Part shown: piece by piece, positions 3,892-5,340 of the stretch
Position numbering within the stretch: the stretch's first letter is position 1
Layout of the letters: every line of letters starts with the position of its first letter
Assembly: GCA_029565815.1 (NCBI GenBank)
Contig: JAKQNL010000316.1
Coordinates: forward strand, 1-5,340
Source: Spirochaetota bacterium
Lineage (GTDB): Bacteria > Spirochaetota > Spirochaetia > Treponematales > UBA12059
DNA: 5,340 bases
Reading direction: 5' to 3'
Position numbers and translations under genes: made by a program
The notes under the pieces: model-generated
What the model was told of the DNA's origin: nothing
Databases searched by the model: none
What the model saw: the letters and a program-made list of their open reading frames with translations, nothing else

Positions 3892-3900
3892 GAAAAGCTA

Positions 3901-3921
3901 AGTGTTACGAAGCTTTGGGAT
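3901..3921 (+). repeat. Left arm of the inverted-repeat element
   Basis: First copy of the repeat unit (A followed by GTGTTACGAAGCTTTGGGAT). It matches the reverse complement of 4026-4046 at every one of 21 bases, and its last 20 bases match 5321-5340 exactly. The unit itself is imperfectly palindromic around AAGCTT. Confidence 0.95.
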
Positions 3922-3993
3922 GAACCTACCGCGCACGTCGGATTAGCCGTGGTTTTGCGTGAGCAGTCTTTTTGCTCGGTAGAATTTGGACAA

Positions 3994-4021
3994 ATTATTA
4001 CTGTATATAGAAATACGTTAA
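3994..4021 (-). promoter_or_regulatory. Weak candidate promoter inside the element, minus strand
   Basis: TTAACG (4021-4016) lies 16 bases from AATAAT (3999-3994, a 5-of-6 match to TATAAT) on the minus strand, in the AT-rich core. It would read out toward the DUF2807 operon with a leader of about 200 bases crossing the left arm. If the segment were inverted it would read toward the rlmI-like gene. In an AT-rich stretch such matches arise easily by chance. Confidence 0.22.
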
Positions 4022-4025
4022 GCTT

Positions 4026-4046
4026 ATCCCAAAGCTTCGTAACACT
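4026..4046 (-). repeat. Right arm of the inverted-repeat element
   Basis: Exact reverse complement of 3901-3921 over 21 bases; the bases on either side diverge at once. It ends 45 bases before the rlmI-like start codon. Confidence 0.95.
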
Positions 4047-4091
4047 AGAGATGCCTTGCTTGAAACGCCTGCTCGGGGCTAGGCTAGGCGC

Positions 4092-5309
4092 ATGAAAGCA
4101 CGAGCCGTTGCAACACTGAAGCCGAAAGAAGAAAACCGCCTCCTTTTGGGCCACCCATGGGCATACGACAACGAAATCGCATCCGTAAGCGGCAATCCGC
4201 AAGCTGGATCCGAAGTAAGCTTACGGAGCGCTCGGGGCAAAAACCTGGGCACGGCCATCTGGAGCCCGGTGAGCAAAATTCGTGCCCGCAGGTATACATG
4301 GGCCGATGAAGAGCTCGATGGATCATTTATCCGGGCTGCTGTGGCCAAAGCGCTAGCACGGCGGGCTCCGTTTCGGGATACCGCAAACGACTCCATGCGG
4401 GCCGTGTTTGCCGAGGCTGATGGACTACCGGGGCTTATCGTGGACCGTTTTGTCGGCACAGGCTCCGACGGAAGCAAAGGCTCCTGGTTGTCGGTGCAGA
4501 TACTGTGCGCCGGCATGGATGCGCGCCGCGAGCTGATACTGGATGCGCTTAAGGACACGCTGCGACCCGACGGCATCATGGAGCGTTCCGACGCACCGGT
4601 TCGCTCGTTTGAGGGCCTGCCTGCGGTGTCCGGTGTTGTGGCCGGCTCGGTACCCGAGCGCATCCAGATTATAGAAAACGGCTTGCGCTTTTCCCTGTGC
4701 CTGGGTCATGGCCAGAAAACTGGCTGGTTTTTGGACCAGCGGGAGAACCGGGCGGCATCGGCAGCGTGGGCCAGGGGCAAGGCTGTACTCGATGTGTTCA
4801 GTAATGCCGGTGGTTTTGCGCTGGCTGCAGCCAAGGCTGGCGCAGAATCGGTGCTCGCCGTCGATTCGTCCGCGGATGCGATTGCCGAACTGAAAGCTAA
4901 CGCCGCGCTCAATGGCCTACAGGGCAGGGTGTCGGCCGTCGAGGCCAATGCTTTTGACTGGCTGCGCGAAGCCCAGGCGCGCAAAGAGCATTACGGTTTG
5001 GTCATATTGGACCCGCCAGCTTTTGCGAAAAACAAAGCGTCCCTGGATGGCGCAATGCGCGGATACAAAGAAATTAACCTGCGGGCTTTGCACCTTTTGG
5101 AAGACGGCGGAATTCTAGCAAGCTTTAGCTGCTCGTTCTGGCTGTCCAGGGATCGTTTCCGCCTGGCTTTGGAATCGGCCGCAGCGGATGCCCATGTGAA
5201 TCTACGGTACCTGGATGAACGGGGACAGGCACCGGATCATCCGGTGCTGGCTGGCTATCCGGAATCGTCGTACCTGAAAGGTTGTGTGGTGCAGGTGGAA
5301 CGGCGCTGA
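4092..5309 (+). CDS. rlmI: RlmI-family 23S rRNA (cytosine-C5)-methyltransferase
   Basis: A 405-residue cytoplasmic class I SAM-dependent methyltransferase of the RlmI/YccW family. The E. coli member makes m5C1962 in 23S rRNA and is about the same length (396). Motifs in order: an N-terminal PUA RNA-binding domain starting with GHPWAYDNEI (20-29); EADGLPGLIVDRF (108-120); the family-specific GQKTGWFLDQREN (207-219); SAM motif I DVFSNAGGFALAAAKAGA (234-251); acidic D258; motif IV LDPPAFAKNK (306-315); GYKEINLRAL (324-333); and SFSCS at 344-348 with the likely catalytic C347. The C-terminal DHPVLAGYPESSYLKG (382-397) also fits. An in-frame TAG lies four codons upstream at 4080, so ATG 4092 is the first possible ATG; only a weak AGG-type ribosome site precedes it. 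The gene is divergent from its neighbours and flanked on both sides by the 20-bp repeat. Exact target position is inferred from family; relatives (RlmK-like or RlmCD-like) are less likely. Confidence 0.92.
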   Translation: MKARAVATLKPKEENRLLLGHPWAYDNEIASVSGNPQAGSEVSLRSARGKNLGTAIWSPVSKIRARRYTWADEELDGSFIRAAVAKALARRAPFRDTANDSMRAVFAEADGLPGLIVDRFVGTGSDGSKGSWLSVQILCAGMDARRELILDALKDTLRPDGIMERSDAPVRSFEGLPAVSGVVAGSVPERIQIIENGLRFSLCLGHGQKTGWFLDQRENRAASAAWARGKAVLDVFSNAGGFALAAAKAGAESVLAVDSSADAIAELKANAALNGLQGRVSAVEANAFDWLREAQARKEHYGLVILDPPAFAKNKASLDGAMRGYKEINLRALHLLEDGGILASFSCSFWLSRDRFRLALESAAADAHVNLRYLDERGQAPDHPVLAGYPESSYLKGCVVQVERR

Positions 5310-5320
5310 TCGCTGTCTTT

Positions 5321-5340
5321 GTGTTACGAAGCTTTGGGAT
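5321..5340 (+). repeat. Third copy of the 20-bp repeat, at the window edge
   Basis: GTGTTACGAAGCTTTGGGAT begins 12 bases after the rlmI-like stop codon and matches the left arm of the upstream element base for base, in the same orientation. It reaches the last base of the window, so whether a second complete element follows cannot be seen. The preceding base differs from the other two copies, which puts the conserved boundary at the G. Confidence 0.93.

Follow-up and report, generated by a model that had tools for sequence, protein, structure and literature searches.

A gene-less miniature element with TA-flanked 20-bp inverted ends in a Spirochaetota genome, likely mobilised by insertion sequences with like ends

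Two facing copies of one 20-bp sequence, with little more than 100 bp between them, lie in contig JAKQNL010000316.1 of a Spirochaetota bacterium, and the question this locus raises is what they delimit. The contig, all 5,340 nucleotides of which are called the window here, is contig C134 of genome G000 (1.95 Mb in 452 contigs, 67% complete). The original prediction proposed a miniature inverted-repeat transposable element (MITE) or other dispersed palindromic element, possibly mobilised in trans. Our analysis points strongly the same way: the stretch is very probably a copy of a gene-less MITE that is present at least 22 times at the same length and is likely cut and pasted by the DDE-fold transposase of insertion sequences (ISs) with like ends. 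Its parts are as follows.

3902..4045, + strand: miniature element, 144 bp from outer arm end to outer arm end (model match 68.9 bits, this copy being itself in the model)
3899..3901, + strand: left flank TAA, with TA one base beyond the 20-bp arm (read from the sequence)
3902..3921, + strand: left terminal inverted repeat GTGTTACGAAGCTTTGGGAT, with 66 exact copies in the 61 examined contigs
3922..3990, + strand: filler of nearly fixed length and barely conserved sequence (alignment of copies)
3991..4015, + strand: AT-rich conserved subterminal box, 10 bp inward of the right arm (22-copy alignment)
4026..4045, - strand: right terminal inverted repeat, the left arm's 20-mer inverted (sequence match and arm count)
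4046..4047, + strand: right flank TA (read from the sequence)
5321..5340, + strand: third arm copy, the last bases of the contig; any partner would fall past the assembly

The exact 21-bp inverted arms that had been described are present at 3901-3921 and 4026-4046, and the third 20-bp unit does recur at the contig's final bases. That this recurrence exceeds chance was confirmed genome-wide, with 107 occurrences of the arm at three or fewer mismatches and none of its backwards-read pattern. We examined 61 sequences of about 410 kb in total, made up of the window and 60 whole contigs (53 chosen for having an arm, and 7 others). These hold 106 arms, including 66 exact copies and 28, 8 and 4 copies with one, two and three mismatches, respectively; none with four mismatches was found in them, and matches with five or more were at chance level, as judged against a partly contaminated control. 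When arms with up to five mismatches were allowed, the same sequences contained 29 inward inverted pairs less than 260 bp apart. The lengths of 22 pairs fall between 143 and 149 bp, and these were aligned; the other seven, of 45, 72, 83, 91, 164, 166 and 203 bp, were left out of the alignment. The family is thus present in many dispersed copies, and the window's copy, with open frames crossing it, has no room for a transposase gene.

The outer flanks of the pairs are also alike. The dinucleotide TA lies directly outside 43 of the 58 paired arms, as at the TA targets of IS630/Tc1-mariner elements, and CAA occupies positions -13 to -11 at 14 of the 58 paired and 7 of the 49 unpaired arms; GCAA-type flanks were seen by eye at several full ISs. 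Insertion at stop codons was considered and rejected, with 7 of the 43 TA flanks closing a frame of at least 100 codons compared with 12.7% of 181 random TA sites, which is no clear excess.

Comparison with the same-genus genome G001 (57% complete) revealed two sites at which the element is absent. At L074:7076-7221, where genes on both sides are conserved, the aligned stretches are separated by 280 bp in G000 and by 120 bp in G001; at L094:5423-5568 the corresponding distances are 294 and 146 bp. The differences, 160 and 148 bp, are near the element's 146 bp. Since these two sites are empty and no arm with two or fewer mismatches occurs in G001, the simplest reading is that the elements were inserted after the two species had separated. 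For the locus in the window itself, the G001 spacer is too diverged to be read further.

The full-length transposon with such termini that the original prediction called for was found complete in relatives and in pieces in this assembly. In relatives, ISs of about 1.2-1.3 kb carry TA-flanked ends of the arm kind around a DDE-fold transposase of about 387 aa, so the terminal inverted repeats are common to an autonomous element whose complete copies are in relatives only. G000 has three partial transposase matches, each running into a contig end: C201:10054-10317 lies 63 bp inward of an exact arm, C190:7833-8651 lies 80 bp inward of a one-mismatch arm of GAACC form, and C69:5169-6182 has the variant end GTGCCCCGAAGCTTATGGG ahead of it at 5068. 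An apparent second right IS end, on C223, resembles that of C190 by eye. The GAACC form is the right arm of 6 of the 22 elements and the left arm of none, a polarity that links element and IS by their right ends. Separately, GTGCCCCGAAGCTTATGGG was observed as a second arm type with several copies in G000 (C69:5068, C25, C64, C66, C87 and C135).

Assignment of this helper to IS630 or ISL3 was tried and dropped. No Pfam model matched the transposase at E 0.001, and 41 transposase members together matched 13 Pfam families at E 0.01, none of which was IS630/Tc1-mariner. The transposase may have a fold in common with the IS256-like ISCth4. One protein gave a weak N-terminal match to ISL3 (NCBIfam NF033550; residues 14-120, E 2e-5) with 23.9 bits, far under the cut-off of 180, and the ISL3 helix-turn-helix was weakly matched by 4 of the 41 relatives. 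ISL3 elements make 8-bp duplications, whereas the present element is TA-flanked. Because the transposase failed these tests, we do not file the element under either family.

Alignment of the 22 copies, oriented by interior similarity, revealed highly conserved arms around a nearly scrambled interior. In pairwise comparison the left arms average 98% identity, the right arms 92% and the interiors 38%, the best interior pair in G000 being 66% identical. Shuffled interiors reached 28.7-30.0% in five sets, and the real interiors are therefore related but near saturation. Nine interior columns are identical in at least 19 of 22 copies and six in at least 21, compared with at most one column at the 19-copy level in 12 shuffled sets that were re-oriented and re-aligned. 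The majority of these columns make up the box, at a fixed distance from the right arm; an IHF-like reading of it is a loose fit. The lack of a conserved interior had been named in advance as an argument against a mobile element, and that argument holds only in part, since length and one box are kept and the rest of the interior is almost unconserved.

The predicted consensus structure confines pairing to the arms, with no pair altered on both sides, and folding of 21 single interiors gave z-scores of -2.8 to +1.1 against mononucleotide shuffles. The smaller inverted repeats reported within the core may be present in the window copy, but none is conserved among the 22 copies. An RNA or single-strand structure was thus rejected, as the arms alone pair, nothing covaries and the window has no Rfam match (nor any match in a tRNA search).

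We built a model of the 22 elements from sequence alone and searched 116 genomes with it, scoring up to 27 candidates in each; 11 genomes, including G000, had matches at E 0.01. Many matches were found only in G000 and in G070, which belongs to a different family of the same order; the remaining genomes had one or two weak ones each. A second run, limited to 8 candidates per genome, covered 390 genomes of the order and gave a match at E 0.001 in seven, again including G000. The 26 rows from G070 comprise 22 distinct full-length copies, two opposite-strand repeats and two partial copies. Twenty of the 22 are 140-147 bp long (the other two are 154 and 166 bp), and the aligned copies have flanks that in most cases are TA or differ from it by one base, as well as a similar box. 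Their arms are 82-83% identical and their interiors 47%; in a young subfamily of six copies, arm mismatch is 3% and core mismatch 13%, so that interiors are similar there. Neither viral contigs nor the named genome collection yielded an exact match to the 20-mer, the genome itself being possibly left out of these, and literature searches, judged by titles and the beginnings of abstracts, gave no description of the element.

A MITE moved in trans fits the many copies, the mostly TA outer ends, the common target motif, the full-length transposons with like ends in relatives and their partial counterparts in this assembly, and the two empty sites in G001. Mechanistically, the transposase of a resident IS would bind both 20-bp arms, assisted by the constant length and the box near the right end, and the element would be inserted at TA sites, often with CAA 11-13 bp outside. 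Movement would then need arms, box and spacing alone, and the filler would for that reason be free to drift. Such a family with a trans-acting IS helper would account for the arms, the TA flanks, the target motif, the length and the empty sites, the movement itself being read from sequence. The variety of interiors probably predates the insertions, because the interiors within G000, at 38% identity, are more divergent than aligned host DNA of G000 and G001, which is 66-76% identical in the main stretches.

Several observations weigh against this interpretation. The interiors are far more divergent than the arms, a contrast that a single recent burst would not give, and similar interiors among recent copies, a usual though not strictly defining MITE trait, were not seen in G000. 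At the empty sites, spacer divergence prevents a TA duplication from being read, no box was seen by eye in the IS ends of G000 itself, and the 67%-complete assembly holds no complete transposase gene. Finally, for 49 arms the nearest 260 bp contain no partner, and only 19 of these arms have TA directly outside. Three of the 49 are IS ends (L085, L086 and L089) and five lie less than 150 bp from a contig end. Decayed partners were rejected as an explanation: for 47 unpaired arms, no match with fewer than seven mismatches lay in the following 220 bp, except for three arms that adjoin a pair, the reversed-arm control of this test being contaminated, with the reversed arm resembling TA plus arm.

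Two unpaired arms lie within genes. At L059:366-385, a one-mismatch arm codes for SQSFVT in frame in the variable-length linker of a PF22052-type protein, one case, which could reflect an in-frame insertion of about 21 bp. At L111:5055-5074, a 19/20 match stands in place of about seven codons of uvrC (4141-5958, minus strand); since 53 aligned homologues show no length difference there, this one case looks like an equal-length replacement. We mention, as a speculation to which we give a small chance, that a 20-bp IS end has turned into a self-spreading repeat, single ends being copied into genes and spacers and sometimes overwriting host bases without a change in length, as in uvrC; the same process would keep the genome's arms uniform while interiors drift. 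Arms in tandem at 20- or 22-bp spacing were also observed (L100:3098-3161, L065:2920-2979 and L092:212-251), as were facing arms around an amylase-like frame (L103:1213-2576) and at L059:366-2463, which were considered as possible gene-cassette borders.

The unpaired arms could also be taken to mean that the arms are host binding sites under selection, regulatory or chromosome-organising in the manner of repetitive extragenic palindromic sequences, with the paired form incidental. The absence of a decayed tail of arms, with none at four mismatches, fits such sites, as do the short tandem arrays in G008 and G013. Each of these two genomes has its own arm form, in arrays both tandem and spaced; the form is mostly GTGTCACGAAGCTTCCGGG, a sequence that ends an IS in G008 and resembles an IS end in G013. 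However, the dispersed arms of G008, G013 and G028 match the IS ends of each genome, the arm is missing from G001 at the threshold given above, and the pairs keep one strict length and a common box, which leaves this explanation improbable. On the arrays themselves, GTGTCACGAAGCTTCCGGG-type arms (L149-L162) gave 41 and 45 pattern matches in G008 and G013, respectively, compared with 2 and 1 transposase matches.

Recombination sites like those of integrons (attC), moved by an integrase, would likewise show conserved ends around a variable centre of near-fixed length. This is very unlikely here, as the conserved single-strand folding of the centre that marks attC sites was not seen, the elements are dispersed singly without cassette arrays, and their ends are common to a DDE-fold IS. 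Misjoining of short repeats in a fragmented metagenome assembly is suggested by the 452 contigs, the 67% completeness and a window that stops exactly at a repeat copy, but is scarcely credible given 22 copies of like architecture in the independent genome G070, from a different family, and flanking genes that match relatives on either side.

RUP and TIMEs are already precedents for much of the element's behaviour. RUP is described in PMC2229807 as a 107-bp intergenic element of Streptococcus pneumoniae with 108 copies, a TA target and ends resembling those of the full IS630-Spn1, its proposed mover. The present element is similarly short, multi-copy and TA-flanked, and its ends resemble those of a full IS; it differs in a transposase without an IS630-type Pfam match and in almost unconserved interiors. 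TIMEs, Tn3-derived elements of Pseudomonas, are given in PMC4133298 as 262 bp long with 38-bp ends and 5-6 bp duplications. They share conserved ends, a more weakly conserved core with short conserved stretches and a size kept despite sequence differences, whereas the present element, at about 146 bp with 20-bp ends and TA, is unlike these Tn3-related ones. Correia elements/NEMIS of Neisseria, as described in PMC2229807, are also short, mobile and multi-copy, a likeness of description; an IHF site is cited there for elements of this kind, and the present element has an AT-rich box.

The repeat is tied to a poorly catalogued IS family that is frequent in spirochaetes. Its filler is near saturation, so the two ends, box and spacing that are retained point to a functional minimum, a natural experiment on what the transposase needs. 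Additionally, the unpaired ends pose a concrete question of how transposon ends multiply.

The genes of the window look ordinary, encoding a ClC channel, a VWA/CsgG-type protein, a DUF2807 protein and an S-adenosylmethionine (SAM) methyltransferase with a PUA domain. Elsewhere, G050 has inverted pairs of about 110 bp with the related arm GTGTTACGAAGCTTGGGG (L163:1440-1550, L164:1916-2026 and L167:1766-1875), whose interiors are hairpin-like by eye and which are perhaps a separate miniature family.
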